This document shows positions 64 through 35,795 of a stretch of 35,795 bases of DNA, piece after piece. The DNA comes from Oscillospiraceae bacterium (GTDB taxonomy: Bacteria; Bacillota; Clostridia; Oscillospirales; Acutalibacteraceae): contig SVOD01000005.1 of the NCBI GenBank assembly GCA_015066575.1, positions 1-35,795 on the forward strand. The letters run 5' to 3'. The position numbers and the translations under genes are program-made. The notes under the pieces were generated by a model. That model was not told the origin of the DNA and did not search any database. It saw only the letters and a list, made by a program, of their open reading frames with translations. Each line of letters starts with the position of its first letter. Positions within the stretch are counted from its first letter, which is position 1.

Positions 64-109
64 CAAATAAGGATTTGCGCGCTCGGAGAGCGCGACAAAT
101 CCTTATTTG
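64..109. repeat. Inverted repeat CAAATAAGGATTTG-CGCGCTC-GGA-GAGCGCG-A-CAAATCCTTATTTG (copy A of an IR family)
   Basis: Direct reading: 14-bp outer arms plus 7-bp inner arms, 3-nt loop, 1-nt bulge; overlaps the stop codon of the cupin ORF. Confidence 0.9.
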
Positions 110-536: not shown

Positions 537-559
537 GCAGCCATTTGGCTGCTTTTTTG
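537..559 (-). terminator. Rho-independent terminator downstream of tRNA-Arg
   Basis: Hairpin AGCAGCC-att-GGCTGCT with T-rich tracts on both sides. Confidence 0.65.
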
Positions 560-632
560 GCACCCCCAGTAGGAATCGAACCTACAACTAATCCTTAGGA
601 GGGACTTGTTATATCCATTTAACTATGGGGGC
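558..632 (-). tRNA. tRNA-Arg (anticodon CCU), CCA encoded
   Basis: Reverse complement GCCCCCATAGTTAAATGGATATAACAAGTCCCTCCTAAGGATTAGTTGTAGGTTCGATTCCTACTGGGGGTGCCA folds as a cloverleaf; anticodon loop CTCCTAA; T-loop GGTTCGATTCC. Confidence 0.93.
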
Positions 633-828
633 AAATCAATATTTAAGAAAAGAACTTATCTATCAGATAAACCTTATCAAGGGACTTGTTTAGCCGAGCA
701 ACCGAAGGTTGCGAACGCCAAGGTTCTGAGCCAAAGGCTCAGGTTCTTATATCCATTTAACTATGGGGGCAAATCAATATTTAAGAAAAGAACTTATCTA
801 TCAGACAAACCTTATCAAGGGACTTGTT
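601..828. repeat. 80-bp tandem duplication of the tRNA-Arg 5' half plus its upstream flank (601-680 and 681-818, then a 10-bp partial third copy at 819-828); second copy interrupted by 58 bp
   Basis: Direct alignment: gggacttgtt/atatccatttaactatgggggcaaatcaatatttaagaaaagaacttatctatcaga(t/c)aaaccttatcaa occurs twice, and the length difference is exactly 58 bp. Confidence 0.95.
691..748. mobile_element. 58-bp double-hairpin insertion element, copy 1
   Basis: Empty site present in the adjacent 80-bp copy; hairpins GCAACC-GAA-GGTTGC and CTGAGCC-AAA-GGCTCAG; flanked by TT; second copy at 35079-35136. Confidence 0.75.
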
Positions 829-995
829 CCTAAATATAATTTGCGAAAGTTATTGTAACCCATTCGCGCCCAAAAGTCAACGAAAAAAGGCAGTGAATAA
901 ACATCCCCAAACCTGCCGATACTGCCTGCACAGGGAAAAAGAGGCAACAAAATATAGTAAGGTTCGGTTCCTTTTACCCTAAAGGAGGCTTTGTA

Positions 996-15047: not shown

Positions 15048-15097
15048 GCAAGGCGTAGCCTTGCCACCACTAATTCCGCATTCCGCATTCCGCATTC
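15048..15097 (-). repeat. Composite: (GAATGCG)3 GAATTA + GTGGTG + GCAAGGC-TAC-GCCTTGC hairpin
   Basis: Reverse complement shows period-7 repeats adjacent to a 7-bp stem with a 3-nt loop. Confidence 0.88.
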
Positions 15098-15144
15098 AAA
15101 TAAGGATTTGGGAGCCCGCAAGGGGCTCCGCAAATCCTTATTTG
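15097..15144. repeat. Inverted repeat CAAATAAGGATTTG-GGAGCCC-gcaag-GGGCTCC-G-CAAATCCTTATTTG (copy C)
   Basis: Direct reading. Confidence 0.92.
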
Positions 15145-15310
15145 TCGAGTTGCCCAAATAAAGAAATAAAACTTTGTTCAAAAAACAAGTTTTATTTCTT
15201 TTTTTAATATATTATAATAAAATTGAGATAGTCTACTATACTTTATTTACCTGAAAACAACCTTTTTGAATAGAGAGCCCGCAGTCGGCGGGTCAGACCC
15301 GGAGGCACCT

Positions 15311-18300
15311 ATGAAAAAGACATTATCCTTATTATTATGTATCGCGTTGCTGTTGAGCATCGTGCCGTTTGGCGCGGTGCAGAGTGCGGCGGCAAACGGG
15401 CGCATTTACCCGGACCAGGAAGTGAGCATTTACTGCCGCTCGGCAGGCAACTGGGATGTGCGCACGTTTATTCCGGAGGAAGACGGTATTTATATTTTCT
15501 CCTCATCCGGTTCGTTAGACACCCTGGGCTATGTTGCCCTCAATGAAGGCGAAGCGCAAAATAAAGATATTAAAGCCGATGGCGGTCAGGGTGACAACTT
15601 TGCCGTGACCTATGAGATGACGGCGGGGACCACCTACTACCTCGGCTCTACCACTTTAACGGGCAAAGGCACCTATACCGTCAAAATCACGAAATTTGAG
15701 GTGGATGACGGCACCATTCACCCCATCACCTTGTCGCAATCGACCGCGGTTACCACCAATAAATCAAAAAACATTAAATTTTTCTCCATTACCCCTGCCA
15801 CTTCGGGTAAGTATATTTATCTTTCCTCGGGCAATTATGACTCGCAGGGCTATGTGTTTGATGAATTTTGGCGGCAGATTGCCTATTCGGATGTCGGCGG
15901 CGCAGCGCAGAATTTCCAAATCACCTTGGATTTGCAGGCGGGAAAAACCTATTATGTCGGCTACGCGGTCACCTCGCTGACCAACGCCACCTTTAATGTT
16001 TTGCTCTATATGAGCTGCTATATTCAAACCATATCGCTGGTGCATGGTCCGGAGAAAAACACTTATATTAAAGATATTGATGCCACACATGTTTCGGGAA
16101 CTACTTACCATGTGGATTTGAATTTGGCAGGCTTTGAATTTAAAGTTAATTACTCCAACGGCACGAGCGAAAACAGAAAGTATACCTATGGCATTCGCGG
16201 GTTGGACTGCGATCCTTCGCGCGACTTGTGGGAAGGCGAAAACGATGTGCGCTTCAGTTACATGGGAAACTATGCTTCGTTTAAAATCAATATCATGGAC
16301 AGCCCGGTTGACAGCTTGACAATGATTCAGCCGCCGGACAAAACCGTTTATTATGATGAAGATATAGAAGAAGCGCTGGATGAAACGAAAATTTTCAACA
16401 TTTCCATTTATGGAATGATTTTGCGCGCGCACTATAAAAACGGCACGACCGAAGACTTTGCGATAGAGTCACTCTACGGGCAGGAGATTGACTATTTCTT
16501 CTTCGACCACATGAGACCGGCATCGCAAATGCACTTGGGCGACAACAGTTTTACCGTTTCTTACTACGGCGCGCCCATGACCTTTACGGTCAAGTATTCT
16601 CTCAACTCCGACAACTGGCAGTATGAAGTCAACGGCGGTGAAGTCACCTTAACCAAATATATCGGTACCGACACGCAAGCTCTCATCCCCGAGGAATTAG
16701 GCGGTTACCCCGTGACCAAAATCGGTGATGAGTGCTTTAAGGATAACACCACGCTCAAGAGCGTGAAGATGACGGAGAACATTACGACAATCGACGAAAA
16801 CGCCTTCTTCGGCTGTACGGCACTTAAGGAATTGACACTGCCGGCATCCCTGACAAGCATTGGCAAGCAGGCGTGCTATGGTTTGAGAAACCTCGAAAAA
16901 CTGACTTGGAATGCGCCGAACCTGAGCATCCTCAAAGCCAACAACACCTTTGCCTATATGGGAGCGGATACGCAGAACGGCACGACAGTGGAATTCGGCT
17001 TCACCTGTCAGGCGATTCCGCAGGACTGCTTCTATAATTCGAGCAACACCTACGCGCCGCGCGTTTACAAGATTATTGTCGGCGAAAATGTTGCGACCAT
17101 CGGCAATAATGCCTTCCGCGAAATTGACAGCCTGCGCCTGGTGGAGTGGAATGCCATGCAAATCACCAACAGCATCGGCACAGCCAACAACATTTGGCTC
17201 AACAACGCGGGGCAAGGGCCCGGCACCTTTGAAGTGCATGTGGGCGAATATGTGCAGTCGCTGCCCAATAACCTCTTCTATGCGGCAACGGCGGGGCGCA
17301 GCCCGCGCATCACCAAAATGACTGTCGAGAGCAACAGCACGACCATCGGCGCCAACACCTTCCGCGCAAACAGCGATGTGCCGCTGACTTTCTACTGCCG
17401 CTACAATGAGGACAGCACCGCCAACTGTGTTTACAACTACTGTGTGAGCAATCAGTTAGACTATGTGCTGCTTGATGCGCCGGTAGACCACATCTACCTG
17501 CGCTCTCAACTGCAAAAAGATGAGTATATTATCGGCGAGGATTTGGACTTGACCGGTTTAAGTGTCTATGCGGTGTATGAAGATTTGACCGAGCAGGATG
17601 TTACCGCGAAAGTCGAGGTTAACGGCTACGATAAAACGCAAATCGGGCTCCAACAACTGACTATTTCCTACACCTTTATTGACAAGACGGTGACAGTGCT
17701 TTATGAAGTGCTTGTCACGGAAGAGCCGCTGGTGCTCGACTATGTGGAAATCACTTCCCCTGCGGAGCAGACCGAGTATTATGCCGGCGATGTCTTTAAT
17801 GACAGCGGCTTGGAGCTGACAGCGGTCTTTACCGACGGCACCCGCCAAAACGTTACCGACTTTATGATTATTTCCGGTTACGATATCAACACGCCCGGGG
17901 TGCAGACGGTTTCGGTTTCTTATACCTATGAAGGTGTTACCCGCAGCGCAACATATGATATTTTGGTTAAAGCCCTTGTGCTTACCAACCTCATTTTGCA
18001 CACCGCGCCCGGCAAAACCGACTATGTGGTCGGGGAGGAATTGAATGTGGACGGCTTAAAGGTTATCGCTGTCTACAACTCCGGCGGCCGCTTGGATGTG
18101 ACCGGCTTCTGTGATTTTTCCGGCTACGATTTAAGCAGCAAAGGCGCGCAAACCGTAACCGTTTCCTATACCGAAAACGCCGTCACCAAAACCTGCTCCT
18201 ACGGCATTACCGTGCACAATCTTTTAGACCATATCACCATAGAAACACTGCCGACCGATTTGGAATTTACCGTCGGTTCCGGCTTTACCGCCAGAGGCAT

Positions 18301-21300
18301 TGTGGTCAAAGCCACTTTCGAAAACGGCGTGCGCGATGTCAGCGATGAAGTGACTTTCTCCGGCTACGATATGGATACCGTGGGCGAGCAGACCGTGACC
18401 GTGAGCTATACGGATGGCGAGAGCACCAAAACCGCCACATACAATATCCGCGTCAATGACAAAGCGCTGCTGCGCCTGCAGTTGACCTCTGCGCCGACCG
18501 CGAAGCAGTATAAAGATGAGGCGCTGGATACCACCGGCTTAAACATCAGCGCGATTTATAATGATGGCAGCCGCGAAAATGTTGCAAGCAAGTGCTTCTT
18601 CTCCGGCTACAATATGGCGCAGACAGGTGCCCAAACCGTGACAGCGGCATACACCTTCGGCGGCAAAACGCTAATGGTAAACTTCGGTATTACCGTGTTG
18701 GAGCGCACTGCCACCGGCATAGAGATAACGTCACCGGCGAGTAAAACAAGCTACCTGGTCGGCGAAGCGCTCGATACAAGCGGTATTGCCGTTACCTTGC
18801 GCTTTGGTGATGAGAGCACCAAGCCGGTACCGACAGCGGATTTGACCTTCTCCGGCTACAACAAAATGCAGGCGGGCGCGCAGACCGTCACGGTCGGCTA
18901 TACTTATAAAGGCAGCAACTTTACGGCGACATATACCGTAACGACTACTAATTATGAAGTTTCCCTTGCGGTGACGGCACCGACCAAAACCGCGTATTAC
19001 TACGGCGATACATTAGAAACCGCCGGGATGAGCGTCACCGCCACGATGGCGGACGGCAGCACCCGCGCGCTCACCTCCGGTTACAACCTTTCGGGCTATG
19101 ATGCACACACGCTCGGCACACAAACCGTGAGTGTGGCATACCCCTGCGCGGTGACCGGCGCGGTATTGCGCGACAGCTTTGCGGTGACGGTCGCCAATTT
19201 CGAAAGCGCCATCGAGGTGGAGGCACCGACCAAGACCGATTATTTCTATGGCGACGCACTGGATGTAAGCGGCATGGCAGCCATTTTGACCATGGCGGAC
19301 GGTTCCCGCCGCCAGGCGGAGCCCGGCGCCCTGCAGGTGAGCGGCTACAATGCGCAGGTGCTCGGCGAGCAGACCGTCACGGTCAGCTACACCGGCGCGA
19401 AAGGCAATGTGCTTTCCGACACCTTCCGGGTGACGGTCGCAAACTTTGAAACAGCTTTAGATGTAACCGCGCCGACGAAGACAACCTATTACTACGGCGA
19501 AGCGCTGAGCCTTGCGGGCTTGAGCGCCAAAGCCGTGATGGCAGATGGGAGCGAACGCGCCCTGACACCGGAAGAATACACCCTTTCCGCTTTTGATAAC
19601 ACCCGCGTGGGCAGTCAGCAAATCACTTTGAGCACTGTCAGCGCGAAAGGAGAGCCCCTCAGCGGCAGCTTTACGGTGAATGTTGTCAACTATGAAACGA
19701 CACTAACAGTGACCGCTCCGACCAAGACCAACTATTTCTATGGCGAGGCACTCAACACCGCCGGTATGAGCGGAACCGTCCGCTGGGCAGACGGCAGCGA
19801 AACGGTTTTGTTGCTCGAGCAGTTGCGCATTAGCGGCTACAATCCGCAGGTGCTTGGCGAGCAGAGTGTCACGGTCAGTTACACCACTGTTAAGGGCGGC
19901 ACCCTGCAAGCGACCTTTACCGTGAGCGTACAAAACTTTGAAACGGCGTTGCACATTTCCCCGCCGCAAAAGAGAGATTATTACTACGGCGAGGAGTTGG
20001 AACTTGCCGGCTTGAGCGGTGTGCTGACAATGGCGGATGGCAGTGAACAGAGCGCAGCGCCTGCCGATTTGCAAGTCGGCAGCTTTGACCCGCTGACAAC
20101 GGGTGTGCAGACCGTTACGGTTTCGTATGTGACAGCGAAGGGCGAAGTGCTCAGCGACAGTTTTACCGTTTTGGTCGTTAACTACGCAACCGCCCTGGCG
20201 GTCAGTGCGCCGACCAAGACCACTTACGAATACGGTGAGCCCTTAGATACCGCCGGTATGACCGCGGCGCTCACTTGGGCAAACGGCAGCAGTACACAGG
20301 TTGCTCCCGCGGCGCTGACGGTTACCGGCTACTCCGCCACACAGGTGGGGCAGCAGAGTATCAGCGTGAGCTACACCAATGTCAAGGGCGAAGTGCTCAG
20401 CGACAGCTTTAGTGTAACGGTGACCAACTACGAAACCGGCATTAGCGTTACCCCGCCGGCGCGCACCGAATACTACTTGGGCGAAGAGCTTAATACCGCC
20501 GGCATGGTGGTCAAAGCCACGATGGCGGACGGCGCGCAAAAAACTCTATCCGAAGATGAAATCACCCTGACGGGTTATGATAAGGACACCCTCGGTGAAC
20601 AGAGCGTGACAGTCAGCTACACCTCCTCGAAAGGCACTGTGTTTACGGATAGCTTTACGGTCACTGTCAGCAATTTTGCGACAGGGTTGAATGTCATCCC
20701 GCCCACCAAAGTGGTGTATTTCTACGGCGAGAGCCTGAATACCTCCGGCATTAGCGCTACATTGACCTCGGCAGCCGGCGAAAGCACGCCGATTGACCCC
20801 TCGAAACTGCGCTACAGCGGCTACAATTCCCGCAAGCTCGGCGAGCAAACCATCACCGTTTCCTACACTTCCGAGACCGGTGAAGTGCTCAAAGATACCT
20901 TTAAAGTCATTGTCAATAACTATGAAAAATCCATTACCGTCACCCCGCCGACCAAGACCGACTATTACTACGGCGAGAGCCTGGATACTGCCGGTTTGGG
21001 CGCAACGGCGCTTATGGCGGATAACACGACAATGGAACTCAATCCCGATTCCTTGATTGTGTTCGGCTACTCTTCCACAAAGCTCGGCAGCCAAAATGTG
21101 AGCGTGATGTATAAGAGCGCGAAAAACACCACCTTAAGCGGCAGCTTCACGGTGAGGGTGAGCAACTACGAAAGTGCTTTATCGATTGTCACCGCGCCCG
21201 ACAAGACCGATTACTACTACGGCGAGGATTTGGATGTGACCGGTTTGAGCGCCAACCTTATTATGGCAAACGGCGCCACCGAGGCCGCCGCAAGCAGCGC

Positions 21301-21865
21301 GCTGAGCATTGCGGCATTTAACCCGCAGCGCCTGGGCAGGCAGACCGTAACCGTCAACTACACCAATGTCAAGGGCGAGGTACTCAGCGATACCTTTACC
21401 GTGATGGTCAATAACTTCCCAACGGTGTTAACGCTTTCCGGCGACTACCCGACCGAGTTTACGCAGGGCGACAGTTTTGACAGTACCGGCTTAAAAGCGC
21501 TCGCGCAGTATGCCGACGGCAGCCGCCACGATGTGAGCGCGGCAGTCACCTTCTCGGGCTACGATATGGAGAGTATCGGCACGCAGACCGTCACCGTCAC
21601 TTACAGTGAGGGTGAAAAACAGGTCAGCGCAAGCTATGAAATCACTGTTAAGAAATATGAGAGCGAAAAACAGCGCGCCGATGTCAATGAGGACGGCTAC
21701 ATCGACTTTTCTGATGTTTCCATTGTTATTGCAAGCGCGAACTACGGTTTTAACACAGCACAGGCGGCAAATGGGCGCGCCGATGCCGACCGCAACGGTG
21801 TGATCAATGTTAATGATGTGAACCTGCTGCTTAAAGCGGAAAATTACGGACAAATAGTCGGCTGA
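15311..21865 (+). CDS. Giant secreted protein: BspA-type LRR segment, ~17 Ig-like repeats, C-terminal type I dockerin-like domain
   Basis: Signal peptide MKKTLSLLLCIALLLSIVPFGAVQSAAA; LRR_5-like LKSVKMTENITTIDENAFFGCTALKELTLPASLTSIGKQAC; repeats YYYGE.L.TAGM...ADGS...SGY....LG.QTVTVSYT; DVNEDGYIDFSDVSIVIASANYG...ADADRNGVINVNDVNLLLKAENYG. Confidence 0.92.
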   Translation: MKKTLSLLLCIALLLSIVPFGAVQSAAANGRIYPDQEVSIYCRSAGNWDVRTFIPEEDGIYIFSSSGSLDTLGYVALNEGEAQNKDIKADGGQGDNFAVTYEMTAGTTYYLGSTTLTGKGTYTVKITKFEVDDGTIHPITLSQSTAVTTNKSKNIKFFSITPATSGKYIYLSSGNYDSQGYVFDEFWRQIAYSDVGGAAQNFQITLDLQAGKTYYVGYAVTSLTNATFNVLLYMSCYIQTISLVHGPEKNTYIKDIDATHVSGTTYHVDLNLAGFEFKVNYSNGTSENRKYTYGIRGLDCDPSRDLWEGENDVRFSYMGNYASFKINIMDSPVDSLTMIQPPDKTVYYDEDIEEALDETKIFNISIYGMILRAHYKNGTTEDFAIESLYGQEIDYFFFDHMRPASQMHLGDNSFTVSYYGAPMTFTVKYSLNSDNWQYEVNGGEVTLTKYIGTDTQALIPEELGGYPVTKIGDECFKDNTTLKSVKMTENITTIDENAFFGCTALKELTLPASLTSIGKQACYGLRNLEKLTWNAPNLSILKANNTFAYMGADTQNGTTVEFGFTCQAIPQDCFYNSSNTYAPRVYKIIVGENVATIGNNAFREIDSLRLVEWNAMQITNSIGTANNIWLNNAGQGPGTFEVHVGEYVQSLPNNLFYAATAGRSPRITKMTVESNSTTIGANTFRANSDVPLTFYCRYNEDSTANCVYNYCVSNQLDYVLLDAPVDHIYLRSQLQKDEYIIGEDLDLTGLSVYAVYEDLTEQDVTAKVEVNGYDKTQIGLQQLTISYTFIDKTVTVLYEVLVTEEPLVLDYVEITSPAEQTEYYAGDVFNDSGLELTAVFTDGTRQNVTDFMIISGYDINTPGVQTVSVSYTYEGVTRSATYDILVKALVLTNLILHTAPGKTDYVVGEELNVDGLKVIAVYNSGGRLDVTGFCDFSGYDLSSKGAQTVTVSYTENAVTKTCSYGITVHNLLDHITIETLPTDLEFTVGSGFTARGIVVKATFENGVRDVSDEVTFSGYDMDTVGEQTVTVSYTDGESTKTATYNIRVNDKALLRLQLTSAPTAKQYKDEALDTTGLNISAIYNDGSRENVASKCFFSGYNMAQTGAQTVTAAYTFGGKTLMVNFGITVLERTATGIEITSPASKTSYLVGEALDTSGIAVTLRFGDESTKPVPTADLTFSGYNKMQAGAQTVTVGYTYKGSNFTATYTVTTTNYEVSLAVTAPTKTAYYYGDTLETAGMSVTATMADGSTRALTSGYNLSGYDAHTLGTQTVSVAYPCAVTGAVLRDSFAVTVANFESAIEVEAPTKTDYFYGDALDVSGMAAILTMADGSRRQAEPGALQVSGYNAQVLGEQTVTVSYTGAKGNVLSDTFRVTVANFETALDVTAPTKTTYYYGEALSLAGLSAKAVMADGSERALTPEEYTLSAFDNTRVGSQQITLSTVSAKGEPLSGSFTVNVVNYETTLTVTAPTKTNYFYGEALNTAGMSGTVRWADGSETVLLLEQLRISGYNPQVLGEQSVTVSYTTVKGGTLQATFTVSVQNFETALHISPPQKRDYYYGEELELAGLSGVLTMADGSEQSAAPADLQVGSFDPLTTGVQTVTVSYVTAKGEVLSDSFTVLVVNYATALAVSAPTKTTYEYGEPLDTAGMTAALTWANGSSTQVAPAALTVTGYSATQVGQQSISVSYTNVKGEVLSDSFSVTVTNYETGISVTPPARTEYYLGEELNTAGMVVKATMADGAQKTLSEDEITLTGYDKDTLGEQSVTVSYTSSKGTVFTDSFTVTVSNFATGLNVIPPTKVVYFYGESLNTSGISATLTSAAGESTPIDPSKLRYSGYNSRKLGEQTITVSYTSETGEVLKDTFKVIVNNYEKSITVTPPTKTDYYYGESLDTAGLGATALMADNTTMELNPDSLIVFGYSSTKLGSQNVSVMYKSAKNTTLSGSFTVRVSNYESALSIVTAPDKTDYYYGEDLDVTGLSANLIMANGATEAAASSALSIAAFNPQRLGRQTVTVNYTNVKGEVLSDTFTVMVNNFPTVLTLSGDYPTEFTQGDSFDSTGLKALAQYADGSRHDVSAAVTFSGYDMESIGTQTVTVTYSEGEKQVSASYEITVKKYESEKQRADVNEDGYIDFSDVSIVIASANYGFNTAQAANGRADADRNGVINVNDVNLLLKAENYGQIVG

Positions 21866-23531: not shown

Positions 23532-23642
23532 ATAAATTAATTAGATATTATTGCAATAAAAGAAAAAATGATATAAAATTATTTTGATAAAAGTTTTATG
23601 AAAAAGCCATTTATGCTGTCGGTTACGGCGCAGGAGGTATGT

Positions 23643-26600
23643 ATGCATCGATTTCAAAAACCTTTGAGTATTCTTTTAGCGGTTATTATCGCACTGGGTG
23701 CGTTTACCGCTATTCCTTTTTCCGCTGCGGCAGCGACTGCCGTCAGTTATATTGAGCGCGCGTGGAATCCGGAGGCGCAAACGGAGCAGGAACGCATTCT
23801 TGATACCGAAAAAACCTGTACCGATTATACGGATTGGAGCGATGTGACAGGCACATCGCTTGCGCCGGGCTGGTATGTGGTTTCAAAAAATTGCACGGTC
23901 GGCTCTCGTATGATAGTGGCGAGCGGTGAGGTACACCTGATTTTGTGCGATGGTGTGACGATGAACTTGCAAAAAGGTATTAACATCAAAGCCGACGGTA
24001 GTTTATATATTTACGGGCAGGCAAACGATACCGGCAAAATATATGCCAACATTCATTTTTCCGATGGCACCTATGACCATGAGTGCGCGCTCATTGGCGG
24101 TGTGAAAGGGGAAGATTGCGGTAATATCACGATTTACGGCGGCACCATTGATTTGACTTATTTAAGCGGTACCGGTGCATGTATCGGCGGTGCCGAAGGA
24201 AGAGGCGGCGGTATGACGCGCATTTACGGCGGTCATGTGACTTGCCAGCAACAAGCCGGCTCGGGTGCGGCAATCGGCGGCGGTTATCATGGACCTGCAA
24301 GCCGCTTTGAGCTGGAAGCCATCCAAATATACGGCGGCGACATTGATGCCAAAAGTTGGGGCGGCGCGAGCATCGGTAGCGGGATAGAAGGTAACAGCGG
24401 CAAGGACGGTATTGGTATTTACGGCGGCACGATTAAGGCACAGTGCAGCACCGGTGCCGGTATCGGCGGCGGTGAAAGAGGCAAAAACGGACCGATACAT
24501 ATTTATGGTGGCGATATTAATACAGTCGCGTATGCAGAAGGCTATACCGGTGCCGGTATTGGCAGCGGTTTGGAACAAAACCAGGGTGGAACGATTGATA
24601 TTTCCGGTGGCGTTGTAGTGGCAACTTCTCGCAACGGTGCCGGTATCGGCGCCGGCAAGGAAGCCAGTGCCTCGCAAATCAATATTTCCGGCGGTACGAT
24701 TGTTGCCTCGTCCACCGAAGGCGGCGCCGGCATTGGCGGCGGCGCGGATGGCGGCAACGGTGGCACCATTCACATTGAAAATGCTAATGTATTCGCCTGT
24801 TCCTCTAATTATAACAGCATGGCGGATGCCACAGATGATATTTTAAAATGTTTAAACAAAACGAATCCGAATCCCTCTGACCATGGGGAATCGGTTGTCG
24901 GTGTGTTTTTGGGGCTTTTAGCTTTGATTGTGGATGGCTTTGGCGCTGACCAATCCGGTTGCGGCATCGGCGGCGGTTCGTGCGGCGGCAGTGTTTCTTC
25001 CATTACCATTCAAAACAGTAATGTGACAGCCAAATCCGGCAATTATTCGGCTGCCATCGGCAGCGGCGAAGAGGGCGATATCGATACCATTACCATTGAA
25101 AACAGCACGGTAACGGCGGAAAGCGGTGATTACGGTGCCGCTATCGGTACCGGCGATGAAGCCGATAACAAGGTTACCATTGATATTAAAAATTCTACGA
25201 TTGACGCTGCCTCCGGTGATGATGCAGCAGCCATCGGCACCGGCAATGAGGTCGACAGCGCACCGGACATCACGATTACCGATTCCAAAGTCACGGCAAA
25301 CGGCGGCGAATATGCTGCCTCCATCGGTGGCGGCGATGATGTGAGCGGCGGCAATATCACGATTGACCACTCCACAGTGATTGCCGATAGAGCACTTTAC
25401 TATTACCTTGAAGAACCGCACGATGAAATGAGCATTCGCGAACACAGAAATTGTGACGGCGCGGGTATCGGCGGCGGTGAGGACGGTCACGGCGGCACGA
25501 TAGTCATTCAAAACAACTCGAATGTAACGGTACACGGCGGCCCCTATGCGGCAGGCATCGGCGGTGGCGATAACGGTGACGGCGGCGATATCACCATTAG
25601 AGAGTCCACCGTAAAAGCCTACGGCGGTACGGACGCTGCCGGTATCGGCGGCGGTGAAGGCGGTGACGGCGGCAATATCACCATTATCAATTCCGATATA
25701 TATGCCGAGGGTAAGAGTTACGGTGCCGGCATCGGCAACGGCGAGGATGGTGACAAAACCGATATTAAAATCCGCGGTTCAAACAACAAGGTAGAGGCGA
25801 TTGCCGGCAGTGACGGTAAGGCGGTAGCAATCGGTCAAGGCGGCAATGGTATATTTTATCCTTACAGTATAACAAGGTCGTTCGACCCAACCCTGCTTTG
25901 TGATGCCGGCTCCGATAAAAGCCATACTGCGCGCTATCACGGCGATGACCGCTACACTGCGGCAAAGGTTGCAAAATATATGTACCTTTTCCCCTGTGAG
26001 CATAATAATCGCAAGTGGGTGTATGATAGCGACACTTTACATGTACCGCAGTGTACCGAATGTGAATTGCGCATTTACTCCGGTGCCGGTTATCATGATT
26101 GGGATGAAAATAATATTTGCACCGTTTGCGGGTGTTCTGCTGTGATGCGTGAAATCACCTTTGTTGAGCAGGATGCAAACGGAAATCAGGTTACTTTTAA
26201 ACAATCCGGTCCCGTGAGCGGTACTATCAAAGCGCCTGTAAGTACCCACGCGCCGGAGGGGATGGAATTTGTTTGTTGGAGTGAGAGCGGCGCCTACTAT
26301 GCCGGTGCCGGTGAAGACATTGGCGTGTCTAATCGCGAAAGAACCTTCGAAGCCGTTTATCTTCCTGTGACGCAGGCAACTTATATTGACCGTGACGGCG
26401 CAGAGAAAACGGTCACTGCGCGCCGCTTAACGCATACAAATTTGGAACTGACAGCCGGTCGGTATGTGGTGGAGAGCAATATTCAATCGCGCAATGCAAT
26501 GACCATTTCCGGCGATGTGGAACTCATTCTTGCGGATGGTGCTACTTTCTCTTTCTACCAAGGGTTTGATTATTATGATTTGGATCACATTGATTGCCTG

Positions 26601-29564
26601 ATAACCGCACAGAATACATCGTCCACATTAAGTGTTTACGGGCAAAAACAGCAAACAGGTACTTTACTTCTCGGCAAGCGCCACACGGTTTTAACGGACT
26701 TTGCGCAATACGGCGGTGTGGTTGACAGTGAAACGGGCTTTTTTGAATCCACTAAAAATTGCGTGATAAGCGGCGGTACCTTTAAAGCGGCTGTTTTGGT
26801 TTGTGACAGAGCCGCTATCCTCGGCGGCAATGCGACTATCGGCAATATGCCGCTCAACAAAAGTTTGCAACTCGCCTGGCAGCAAAAGAGTGACCGCATT
26901 CACTTTGATTCTTTAGAGAGCGAAAACACGAGCGTGGTTGCAAATCAGGCATTTTGCGATGAAAACGGCAATGTATATAAAGGCACCTTGAGCGCCGAGC
27001 AGGTCAGCGCGCTTCAGGGCAAAACGCTTATGCCGTATGTGGAGCATAATTATGCGGAGCCGGAGTGGGTTTGGTCGGATGAATACACCAATGCCGAGGC
27101 GGTATTTCGTTGCAAAGACTGCGAAGAAGAGCAAACCATCAGCGCAAAGGTAACATGGGAAGATGAAGGCAATAGCAGAACCGCTCATGCGGTATGCACA
27201 TTTAACGGTGATACTTACACCGACACACGCACCGTTAACATCATGTGGAATATCACCGTGGCTCAAACTGAACACGGCACAATCAGCGCCGATAAAGCGC
27301 ACGCAAAAGCAGGCGAACCGGTTTGCATTACCGCCACACCCGATGAAGGCTATGTGCTTGATGCCCTGGAGGTGAGCGATAGCGAAGGCGGTCACATTGA
27401 GGTTGAAAACAATAAATTTAAAATGCCGGAAAGCGATGTGAGCATCACGGCAAGCTTTAAGATAACCACGCATACGGTGCGCTGGGTTGCCGGCGCGCAA
27501 ACCCTCGAAACGGATGAAAATGTGCCTTACGGCACAACACCGGAATATAACGGCGCAACCCCTGCCTCGTATTTTGACGGCGAAGCCGAATATGTGTTTG
27601 CAGGCTGGTCCCCTGCCGTTGCACCTGTTACGGAGGATGCCGTTTATACCGCAACGTATGCCGCGAGCGGAAAAACCCGCGTACCCTACATCAATGAAAA
27701 CGGCACGCAAAGCATCGCAACGGCAGCAATACTTACCGGCAGCGAAACCGTGCTCGAAAGCGGCTGGTATGTGGCGCGTTCGGAAATCAACTATCAAGAC
27801 AAACTGAAGATTTCCGAGGGGGTTAAACTGATTCTTGCCGATGGTGCGCATTTGCGTGTGCATCACTTCGACTATGCCGATGCCAACAAACTTTGCACTC
27901 TGCGCGTATTTGCGCAATGCGGAAAAACCGGCAGCATGCAAATCCAACACAACAGCAGTTTGACGGGGATTGATATTTACGGTGGCAATGTTAACCTGCC
28001 GTTTATGCTTACAATGAGCGCAGGCTTTTATGCGGGCAATATAGAAATCGGAAATCTGTTTGTGCCGCAAGATGCCGGGAGCATTACACTCGGTTGTGCA
28101 AATGATGATGACCGCATTAAAATCGGCACCTTGAATAACGGTACCGTAGCGGTGGTGCAGGGGCAAACCCTGTATGACGGCAAGGCGCTTTACAGCGGCA
28201 GCCTCTCAAGTGCGCAAGTGAGCGCTCTCGACGGCAAGACACTGCGCAAAGCCCCTCGCTATACCGTGCGCTGGATGATAGGCGATACGCTTGCCGAAAC
28301 GGATGAAAATGTGCTTGTCACTTCCACCCCTTCTTTTGACAGCACCCTGCCTGCCACATACATTGAAGGGCAAACGCACTATTGCTTTAGCGGCTGGAGT
28401 GATGGCGAAAAGGTCTATGCACCCGATGCCTTACCCGCGGTAAGCGCGGATGTTACCTACACGGCGGTTTATACGCAAGGTGAGCATGACTACGGCGAAC
28501 CGGTTTGGAATTGGGCTGCCGATTGCAGCAGCGCCACTGCCGTGTTTACCTGTTCGCTTTGTCAGCGGTGCGAAGCAGTCGATGCCGTTGTCACACCGTT
28601 GGCGGACGGCAAAACCTATCGGGCAACGGCAATCTTTAACGGCGAAGAATACAGCAACACGAAAGAGATGGCTACCGTGCATCGCAACGGCGCGTCCCTC
28701 ACGCTTAATGACGGTGTAAGTCTCAATGTTTACCTCGATGCGGACTCTTACGGTTTGGAGGCAGGCAAAGCCGTCGTGAAGCTGACTTACAACCACAATG
28801 CGGATATCGGAAAAGAGAAGAATATCACGACGGATATCATCGCGCTTGGCGAAGCCGCCAAGTACATGAAAAGCGGTGATACCTACAGCGGCACCTACAA
28901 GTTTTCTTTCAGAATGGCACCGGCACAGTTTGCCGATGACATTACAATTGCGCTGTATGCGAGCGCCGAAGTGGCAGAGCCGGTCTTTACCGCGACCACC
29001 AATGTGAAGGCGAAGTGTGAGCAGGTGAAGACCCTTGCCGAGAAGAATGGCGCTTACGCTTCTCTCGCTGCTCTTTGCGCCGCGCTGGAAGATTACTGTA
29101 TCGCTTCTCAGGTCTACTTTGCTTATGATGCTCCGCAAGCACCGGCATACAATAACCTCGCTGTGACCACCATGGCGGCAGATGATATGGAAGTGCCGGA
29201 AACAAGCTTGGGCATTCCCGCAACCGGTTTCTCCTTTACGGTGGTTTCCGCTTTGGAAGTCAATATTTTCTATAGCGGCACCCTCAAGGTGCCGGGCGTG
29301 TCGATTGCTTCTGCCAAGGGCAGTGACAGCGTGCGTGCCGAAGTGACCGAGAAGGGTAACAGGAACTGTATCAATATCAAGGGTATTGCTTCCGGCAATA
29401 TGGATAACCTTGTGACAGTTAACACCACGGCAGGCGATGTTACGTTGGCGGCAACCAATATTGCAAAAGCCATCGCTGCAAGCACAAATAACACGGATTA
29501 TGCGAACCTTGCAAGAGCGCTGTATCTTTACAGTGTGCAGGCAAGCCGCTACTTTGGCTGTTAA
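23643..29564 (+). CDS. Giant secreted repeat protein, predicted right-handed beta-helix/AIGGG-repeat surface protein with bacterial-repeat (Flg_new-like) domains
   Basis: Signal peptide MHRFQKPLSILLAVIIALGAFTAIPFSAAAA after AGGAGG; many ITIENSTVTAESGDYGAAIGTGDE-type repeats; ITVAQTEHGTISADKAHAKAGEPVCITATPDEGYVLDALEV. Confidence 0.85.
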   Translation: MHRFQKPLSILLAVIIALGAFTAIPFSAAAATAVSYIERAWNPEAQTEQERILDTEKTCTDYTDWSDVTGTSLAPGWYVVSKNCTVGSRMIVASGEVHLILCDGVTMNLQKGINIKADGSLYIYGQANDTGKIYANIHFSDGTYDHECALIGGVKGEDCGNITIYGGTIDLTYLSGTGACIGGAEGRGGGMTRIYGGHVTCQQQAGSGAAIGGGYHGPASRFELEAIQIYGGDIDAKSWGGASIGSGIEGNSGKDGIGIYGGTIKAQCSTGAGIGGGERGKNGPIHIYGGDINTVAYAEGYTGAGIGSGLEQNQGGTIDISGGVVVATSRNGAGIGAGKEASASQINISGGTIVASSTEGGAGIGGGADGGNGGTIHIENANVFACSSNYNSMADATDDILKCLNKTNPNPSDHGESVVGVFLGLLALIVDGFGADQSGCGIGGGSCGGSVSSITIQNSNVTAKSGNYSAAIGSGEEGDIDTITIENSTVTAESGDYGAAIGTGDEADNKVTIDIKNSTIDAASGDDAAAIGTGNEVDSAPDITITDSKVTANGGEYAASIGGGDDVSGGNITIDHSTVIADRALYYYLEEPHDEMSIREHRNCDGAGIGGGEDGHGGTIVIQNNSNVTVHGGPYAAGIGGGDNGDGGDITIRESTVKAYGGTDAAGIGGGEGGDGGNITIINSDIYAEGKSYGAGIGNGEDGDKTDIKIRGSNNKVEAIAGSDGKAVAIGQGGNGIFYPYSITRSFDPTLLCDAGSDKSHTARYHGDDRYTAAKVAKYMYLFPCEHNNRKWVYDSDTLHVPQCTECELRIYSGAGYHDWDENNICTVCGCSAVMREITFVEQDANGNQVTFKQSGPVSGTIKAPVSTHAPEGMEFVCWSESGAYYAGAGEDIGVSNRERTFEAVYLPVTQATYIDRDGAEKTVTARRLTHTNLELTAGRYVVESNIQSRNAMTISGDVELILADGATFSFYQGFDYYDLDHIDCLITAQNTSSTLSVYGQKQQTGTLLLGKRHTVLTDFAQYGGVVDSETGFFESTKNCVISGGTFKAAVLVCDRAAILGGNATIGNMPLNKSLQLAWQQKSDRIHFDSLESENTSVVANQAFCDENGNVYKGTLSAEQVSALQGKTLMPYVEHNYAEPEWVWSDEYTNAEAVFRCKDCEEEQTISAKVTWEDEGNSRTAHAVCTFNGDTYTDTRTVNIMWNITVAQTEHGTISADKAHAKAGEPVCITATPDEGYVLDALEVSDSEGGHIEVENNKFKMPESDVSITASFKITTHTVRWVAGAQTLETDENVPYGTTPEYNGATPASYFDGEAEYVFAGWSPAVAPVTEDAVYTATYAASGKTRVPYINENGTQSIATAAILTGSETVLESGWYVARSEINYQDKLKISEGVKLILADGAHLRVHHFDYADANKLCTLRVFAQCGKTGSMQIQHNSSLTGIDIYGGNVNLPFMLTMSAGFYAGNIEIGNLFVPQDAGSITLGCANDDDRIKIGTLNNGTVAVVQGQTLYDGKALYSGSLSSAQVSALDGKTLRKAPRYTVRWMIGDTLAETDENVLVTSTPSFDSTLPATYIEGQTHYCFSGWSDGEKVYAPDALPAVSADVTYTAVYTQGEHDYGEPVWNWAADCSSATAVFTCSLCQRCEAVDAVVTPLADGKTYRATAIFNGEEYSNTKEMATVHRNGASLTLNDGVSLNVYLDADSYGLEAGKAVVKLTYNHNADIGKEKNITTDIIALGEAAKYMKSGDTYSGTYKFSFRMAPAQFADDITIALYASAEVAEPVFTATTNVKAKCEQVKTLAEKNGAYASLAALCAALEDYCIASQVYFAYDAPQAPAYNNLAVTTMAADDMEVPETSLGIPATGFSFTVVSALEVNIFYSGTLKVPGVSIASAKGSDSVRAEVTEKGNRNCINIKGIASGNMDNLVTVNTTAGDVTLAATNIAKAIAASTNNTDYANLARALYLYSVQASRYFGC

Positions 29565-31428: not shown

Positions 31429-31481
31429 GAAAGGGGACGGTTCTATTTCTCGCAAAGCAAGAAGCAGAACCGTCCCCTTTC
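31429..31481. repeat. Perfect 16-bp inverted repeat GAAAGGGGACGGTTCT...AGAACCGTCCCCTTTC (REP-like or terminator)
   Basis: Direct reading. Confidence 0.85.
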
Positions 31482-31505: not shown

Positions 31506-31559
31506 AATGCGGAATGCGGAGTGCGGAATTCAGAATTAAATGTGGCGCGCACAGCGCGC
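31506..31559 (+). repeat. Composite: period-7 array (aatgcgg/aatgcgg/agtgcgg/aattcag/aattaaa) + TGTG + GCGCGC-ACA-GCGCGC hairpin
   Basis: Direct reading. Confidence 0.87.
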
Positions 31560-34830: not shown

Positions 34831-34875
34831 AAATAAGGATTTGTCGCGCTCTCAGAGCGCGCAAATCCTTGTTTG
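34831..34875. repeat. Inverted repeat AAATAAGGATTTG-T-CGCGCTC-TCA-GAGCGCG-CAAATCCTTGTTTG (copy D)
   Basis: Direct reading; nearly identical to copy A with a different loop. Confidence 0.9.
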
Positions 34876-35061: not shown

Positions 35062-35078
35062 GCCCGACAAATCCTTTA

Positions 35079-35136
35079 GCCGAGCAATCGAAGATTGCGA
35101 ACGCCAAGGTTCTGAGCCTGCGGCTCAGGTTCTTAT
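35079..35136. mobile_element. 58-bp double-hairpin insertion element, copy 2
   Basis: Same length and boundaries as 691-748; hairpins GCAATC-GAA-GATTGC and CTGAGCC-TGC-GGCTCAG; interrupts caaatcctt^atttgtcg of the IR family. Confidence 0.75.
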
Positions 35137-35795
35137 TTGTCGTTAACCTGCGCGGTCAGCGAGCACTCAAACGCGTGGCTTAAATACCTTTTCATTTCCA
35201 CGCGGCGCTCGCCCTTGGGGAAGCGGTAGGTTTTTTCAAAAAAATCGCGCGCGGTTTCGCTTTCGTAAAAGGCGAGCGCGATGGCGGCGCTCCCTGCCGA
35301 AAAAGCGGTGCTACACGCACCTTTTTGGGTAAAATGCGGGCTGATGCTGTCACCTTGCAGCACCAAAAGCGCGGTGCTTTTGCAGGGGGATACCGCGGCA
35401 CAGCTGCACAGTAATTCTTCTGCGCTTTCCGCCTGTTCCGGGGTAGCGATATAGTAGGCGCAGCCGCCAAACACAATTTGCGGCAGAGCGCCGGTGTAAT
35501 CGCTCTGCGCTTTAGCGGCAAGTGAAAGGCGCACAAGCGAATTTTGCGCCTCTAAAGTGGCGCTCATCGGCGAAGCGATGCCGCTTACGGAGATTTGAAA
35601 ACTACCGCTCCCCTCACTTTTTTTGCCGAGATATTTGCCGAAACACAGCGCGCAGTCCGCACTGAAGAAGTCCCCGGTGCATTCACAGCGGGGAATGGCT
35701 ATTTCGGTGCTGCGCACAAAGCCTGCCTGCACGCTCATCGGCGCACCTTTAATGATTTCGGCACTGCTTTTTTCGATATTGTCGGTGCCGACACC
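35133..35795 (-). CDS. Hypothetical protein, 5' end beyond the window; weak resemblance to a diaminopimelate-epimerase-like fold
   Basis: Open reading continues to the window edge (GVGTDNIEKSSAEIIKGAPMSVQAG...); CALCFGKYLG and ACSTAFSAGSAAIALAF loosely resemble DapF Cys motifs; guess only. Confidence 0.4.
   Translation of the reverse strand, partial: GVGTDNIEKSSAEIIKGAPMSVQAGFVRSTEIAIPRCECTGDFFSADCALCFGKYLGKKSEGSGSFQISVSGIASPMSATLEAQNSLVRLSLAAKAQSDYTGALPQIVFGGCAYYIATPEQAESAEELLCSCAAVSPCKSTALLVLQGDSISPHFTQKGACSTAFSAGSAAIALAFYESETARDFFEKTYRFPKGERRVEMKRYLSHAFECSLTAQVNDK

Follow-up and report, generated by a model that had tools for sequence, protein, structure and literature searches.

Very short structured insertion elements in one clostridial order, possibly mobilised in trans by an HUH-like single-strand enzyme

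A 58-nt sequence present twice in a 35,795-nt stretch of DNA from an Oscillospiraceae bacterium (the whole stretch is referred to here as the window) belongs to a structured family that is very probably mobile. The family is a discrete element spread through a large set of gut Clostridia, most of them uncultured. Its members are read here as very short non-autonomous insertion elements of one clostridial order that depend for movement on an HUH-like, single-strand enzyme acting in trans, a reading with about an even chance of being correct; that the mobiliser is of HUH type is, taken by itself, an evenly balanced proposition. An earlier sequence-only reading of the window had described a discrete structured element with compensatory stem changes, inserted more than once and too small to hold an enzyme gene, and this description held. 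Related genomes, where it had suggested a search, yielded many further copies together with occupied and empty sites, and flanks are not conserved around all copies.

Both copies in the window (Table 1) are far above chance, with 0 matches in dinucleotide shuffles. Copy 1 is laid out as TAGCCGA, hairpin 1 (GCAACC GAA GGTTGC), GAACGCCAAGGTT, hairpin 2 (CTGAGCC AAA GGCTCAG) and GTTCTT. In copy 2, hairpin 1 is GCAATC GAA GATTGC and the loop of hairpin 2 is TGC, so that the paired C:G to T:A change in the first stem and the AAA/TGC difference in the second loop are as originally described. Copy 1 had been placed exactly. The unit beside it, previously called an exact empty site, is an empty site and a near-exact one, with one T/C mismatch in 80 when 601-680 is compared with 681-690 joined to 749-818. 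Copy 2 is a real 58-bp insert, lying 2 nt below the 35079-35136 first assigned to it; it interrupts CAAATCCTT^ATTTG, and the same sequence is uninterrupted at 96-109 and 15131-15144, in agreement with the claim that it splits a sequence intact elsewhere in its repeat family. This palindromic MITE-like repeat (64-108, 15097-15144 and 34831-34875 in the window) is the main target of the 58-mer and is very abundant, with about 140 GACAAATCCTTATTTGTC ends in the genome of the window, many of them paired divergently at a spacing of about 20-230 bp. Window copy 2 and copies at five other loci (L241, L245, L261, L277 and L323) abut gene ends, where a TAA stop codon is provided or re-established by the ATAA of target plus element end.

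Table 1. Copies of the 58-nt element and their occupied and empty sites in the window
Feature	Position	Strand	Remarks
Element copy 1, 58 nt	691..748	+	Covariance-model match 89 bits, E 1e-22
Element copy 2, 58 nt	35077..35134	+	Covariance-model match 89 bits
Intact tRNA-Arg(CCT)	558..632	-	Empty site TTGTT^ATATCC within 5' half
First 80-bp unit of tandem duplication (tRNA 5' half and upstream region)	601..680		Empty site
Second duplication unit, split by copy 1	681..828		681-690 and 749-818, then third partial unit GGGACTTGTT
Palindromic MITE-like repeat end, split by copy 2	35064..35141		CCCGACAAATCCTT^ATTTGTC
Intact (empty) MITE-like repeat end	96..109	+	CAAATCCTTATTTG
Intact (empty) MITE-like repeat end	15131..15144	+	CAAATCCTTATTTG

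The genome of the window (G000), a MAG of 2.2 Mb in 181 contigs with 83% completeness, holds 9 close copies and 16 covariance-model matches. Across seven genomes of the genus, 141 matches to the covariance model were obtained at E<=0.1, 46 of them in a single genome (G001). A broader model was applied to 397 genomes of the order and detected the element in 20, distributed over six families (f1, f3, f11, f17, f21 and f26), plus a weak match in f9; the named relatives are Clostridia MAGs from the ruminant gut. No true copy was present in the viral contigs, phages and plasmids searched: 25 viral pattern matches were chance occurrences within coding sequence, the plasmid matches (E=0.4) were likewise chance, and phages gave nothing. 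A search with Rfam models returned no match over the element, which apparently has no description in Rfam or in the open-access papers searched.

Within the genus, the element consists of TAGCCGA, hairpin 1, CGAACGCCAAGGTT, hairpin 2 and GGTTCTT. Outside the genus, CAAGGTT, hairpin 2 and GGTTCTT come after a left part that reads TTACGAGC-nnn-GCGAGTAA or TTGC-nnn-GCAA. Element lengths range from about 44 to 105 nt, head-to-tail arrays are frequent, and a long hairpin 2 with a AAATCTTTGATTT tip recurs between families. The genus alone contains at least 37 hairpin-1 and at least 49 hairpin-2 sequences, GCGAAGC being the commonest hairpin 1 of this set. Covariation was measured on an alignment not fitted to structure; standard pairs occupied 91% of pair cells, double changes occurred at 9 pairs, and the covariation score was 0.214 compared with 0.03-0.06 when partners were slid (0 of 500 shuffles). 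Both hairpins covary strongly, and selection on the hairpins of one strand is shown statistically. An AAGG/TCTT pairing can lengthen hairpin 2 at its foot; it is nearly invariant and is compensated once as AACG/TGTT (L143, L181). This right-side AAGG/TCTT may be a guide-like pairing, and no left guide was seen.

The identity of the selected strand was approached through 78 distinct hairpins whose loops are three or four nucleotides long. GNA accounts for 20 of 58 triloops and its complement TNC for 1 of 58 (p=2e-5), and GNNA for 9 of 20 tetraloops against none for TNNC, p-values that are optimistic because the hairpins share ancestry. On G-C pairs, loops of the GNA and GNNA types confer extraordinary stability on DNA mini-hairpins, of which d(GCGAAGC) is the type case (PMC4686876). 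No preference for either strand would be expected of a double-stranded cruciform, so selection likely acts on a single folded DNA strand, the top one. Stems of an RNA would be expected to show enrichment of G.T pairs; G.T is not significantly commoner than A.C in the stems of the element (9 versus 6 of 517). The loop type and the lack of G.T enrichment favour single-stranded DNA over RNA, without amounting to proof.

Insertion is clean, with the right end fixed at GGTTCTT^A and T^A(T) as target. At 73-75 distinct sites, T precedes the element (-1) in 68 of 73, and the element is followed by A at +1 in 60 of 75 and by T at +2 in 59 of 75; these are the only conserved positions, and no fixed tetra- or pentanucleotide was detected. 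The right junction is constant; the left one shifts by 1-2 nt from one site class to another (T^TAGCC, G^TTAGCC and C^ATTAGCC). Terminal inverted repeats are absent. The flanking TT had been offered as a possible 2-bp target duplication, which is excluded, as only one left T is constant across 58-73 distinct sites; either no target duplication or at most a 1-nt T may fit all occupied/empty pairs. These pairs comprise tRNA-Arg(CCT) in the window, in L374 (a whole-tRNA tandem copy) and in L375, tRNA-Gln(CTG) in L068, copies of the MITE-like repeat, and an orthologous intergenic site that is occupied in G004 (L302) and empty in G006 (L267), with 93% identity over 269 bp. In a replication-strand test, orientation showed no bias relative to GC skew (48 of 88, p=0.46). 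Insertion next to hairpins was considered as a target rule and discarded, 14% of sites being so placed versus 2-22% of shifted control positions, without enrichment.

Copies of two tRNA genes, like the MITE-like repeat, are recurrent targets entered at fixed nucleotides. Those of tRNA-Arg(CCT) are broken at the same nucleotide in three families (f1, f3 and f26), often with an intact tRNA-Arg(CCT) alongside, and those of tRNA-Gln(CTG) are interrupted at GAATCCTT^ATACC in two genera (g1 and g22). Many interrupted copies are halves breaking near the anticodon loop, which may be likened to attachment-site remnants, and spare tRNA copies would tolerate insertion. The recurrence may reflect either site preference or old inheritance. 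One orthologous tRNA-Arg locus is common to G000, G002 and G004, and G006 has neither this tRNA nor the element at the locus orthologous to the window. When window positions 541-960 are set against L353 (G006:C10), the tRNA-Arg(CCT) of G006 is seen to be of another type; here one tRNA-Arg(CCT) gene stands in the place of another, unrelated one.

The search for a mobilising enzyme covered several kinds of gene. None of the Y1/RAYT genes examined adjoins a copy or carries the ends of the element, a PF01797 (Y1) search of five carriers that are 95-99% complete (G178, G599, G009, G206 and G021) gave no match, and a search for an autonomous parent, one combining these ends with a Y1 gene, found none. 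Mobilisation by a trans-acting factor recognising single-stranded DNA or hairpins, as proposed from the letters alone, fits the strand-specific, DNA-stable loops; the accompanying suggestion of a cognate IS200/IS605 or RAYT TnpA found no support in these searches, nor do the target and orientation statistics agree with that family. The case for IS200/IS605 membership is weak because no Y1 gene examined has these ends and there is no PF01797 match in the five carriers, no fixed tetranucleotide and no orientation bias. Apart from the orthologous tRNA-Arg locus that G000, G002 and G004 have in common, the only conserved gene neighbours of copies are unrelated household genes, and no recombinase gene common to the neighbourhoods was found. 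A form of about 180 bp at tRNA-Arg in L032 and L137, which has an SD-ATG and looked as though internal deletion related it to the short form, was rejected as autonomous parent; its core is a separate repeat of 117 bp that lies within hairpin 1. The 117-bp repeat (GGGGACCCCGAAAAGTATT...TTTGGACGAGCGA) has an SD-ATG start and almost no ORF, also stands alone, and is located at L032 4109-4241, L137, L149, L150 and L151 (G000:C101, C58). RAYT-like Y1 genes at five loci (L037, L042, L044, L045 and L047) have hairpins on their flanks in which the GGGGACGGTTCT loop is constant and the stem changes from element to element, and a solo copy of this hairpin repeat lies in the window at 31429-31481. At L340 and L345, divergent Y1-like genes encode proteins containing VGAIHESP, which matches a GGGGCGATTCACGAATCGCCC repeat beside the L345 gene; the transposase gene has apparently received the repeat as an in-frame insertion.

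In the preferred reading, an enzyme supplied in trans would recognise both hairpins of the folded top DNA strand and would cut 3' of hairpin 2 at GGTTCTT^, with AAGG...TCTT^ as a guide/cleavage-like pair. The element or its circle would then be attached at a new single-stranded site, on the 3' side of a T, much as HUH "peel-and-paste" transposases do, though under a looser target rule. This cut-and-join scheme is based on HUH transposase logic (PMC5934647; PMC8266576). Points against it are that no enzyme was found, that there is no fixed 4-5 nt target, no left guide and no GC-skew bias, and that the left junction varies by 1-2 nt. A bolder proposition is tentative and somewhat doubtful: order-wide micro-elements of minimally about 44 nt, with only two DNA-stable one-strand hairpins, an enzyme that is neither Y1 TnpA nor RAYT and a preference for tRNA-Arg(CCT) and tRNA-Gln(CTG), would represent a new single-strand transposition/recombination system. 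Insertion and stacking of the elements by a site-specific recombinase that forms circles, resembling those of integrons or the tyrosine recombinases and with tRNA genes as its primary sites, is unlikely. The head-to-tail arrays and the recurrent fixed positions in tRNA copies would suit such an enzyme, and integron attC sites likewise use one folded strand, but the consensus has no attC-like GTTRRRY core, many unrelated sites have only T^A(T) in common, and the neighbourhoods of copies share no recombinase gene.

Spread through RNA, in which the transcribed element folds and is copied into DNA at T^A in SINE-like fashion with a fixed 3' end and a variable 5' junction, is improbable. Structure confined to one strand, a constant right and slightly variable left junction and some GNRA loops are what it would predict; however, DNA-type GNA triloops dominate over GNRA, G.T is not enriched over A.C, orientation is random relative to the coding strand (44 of 88), and there is neither a tail nor an Rfam match. 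Passive spread is likewise an improbable account of the family as a whole, with hitchhiking in other mobile repeats and segmental duplication, arrays by slippage, and structure as a by-product of template switching. Many sites do lie within other repeats, so some copies have hitchhiked there, the G001 copies have common flanks, and the foreign 117-bp repeat nests in hairpin 1. Nucleotide-exact occupied/empty pairs nevertheless occur in unrelated contexts, diverged elements use the same target base, and template switching does not predict a one-strand loop bias. An IS630/Tc1-type MITE with TA target duplication is extremely improbable and is already contradicted. The window copies and the CCTT^ATTTG sites can be parsed as TA-element-TA, but in head-to-tail arrays (L032, L091, L128, L386 and L391) GGTTCTT is joined directly to the next left end (GGTTCTT^TAGCC), which speaks against a TA-duplicating MITE; right flanks without A, left ends of the form GTTAGCC/CATTAGCC and the missing terminal inverted repeats are further departures.

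Among known systems, the 58-mer family is closest in kind to REPs and PATEs, yet it fails defining features of both. REP/BIME sequences with RAYT (TnpA-REP) are short intergenic hairpin repeats with strand-specific folding and a loose dinucleotide-type cleavage preference that are thought to be moved in trans (PMC3733652; PMC8266576). The 58-mer family shares the intergenic hairpin form, the strand-specific fold and the loose preference, whereas it has two hairpins in 44-105 nt (20-40 bp for REP), clean insertion pairs and gapless arrays, and no GTAG or CGTC tag in its consensus; no RAYT gene examined is flanked by the 58-mer, the RAYT genes of the genus carrying a different hairpin repeat. 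PATEs and other IS200-IS605 derivatives carry a subterminal hairpin at either end and guide-like pairing by the right one, and they lack terminal inverted repeats and target duplication (PMC5934647; PMC7290912). The 58-mer likewise has subterminal hairpins on one strand, one close to each end, with a possibly guide-like pairing next to the right one, and shows neither terminal inverted repeats nor target duplication, but it is far smaller than the 271-nt PATE (PMC7290912). It also differs in that no parent IS with its ends was found and in lacking a fixed tetra- or pentanucleotide target and a replication-strand (lagging-strand template) bias. In integron attC sites and cassette arrays, what counts is one folded strand, the structure persists through changes in the stems, and arrays run head to tail; the 58-mer shares these traits, but its consensus has no RYYYAAC/GTTRRRY core boxes by inspection, there is no integrase, and copies are dispersed at many unrelated sites. 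The palindromic elements of Rickettsia and Wolbachia are also small dispersed palindromic inserts that are not known to have a mobilising enzyme. The 58-mer resembles them in this, and differs in sequence and architecture, in having ends, target and strand defined to the nucleotide, and in a family that spans an order.

The spread of orphan palindromic bacterial repeats is a long-standing question, for which the 58-mer family offers nucleotide-exact ends, matched occupied and empty sites, arrays with element-to-element junctions, and natural stem swaps that separate structure from sequence. Its strand-specific loop signature points to folded single-stranded DNA, and carriers without a Y1 match narrow the enzyme search. 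At less than 60 nt, it would rank among the smallest trans-mobilised elements known.

Other repeats were observed in the window and at related loci. Short-hairpin arrays with changing stems and constant linkers (ATGATGT/AACATCATT, TCGATAT and GATGAAAT) are found in L045 after the RAYT gene, in L240 near 957-1092, in L302 and in L316; the pattern of varying stem and constant linker is common to them and the 58-mer. Two very large ORFs occupy 15266-21865 and 23598-29564 of the window, one with 246-bp (82-aa) repeats and the other with glycine-rich repeats. Minisatellite repeats of the GCGGAATTC type (AATTCCGCATTCCGCATT) occur in both orientations at 1919-1959, 15072-15096 and 31506-31546.
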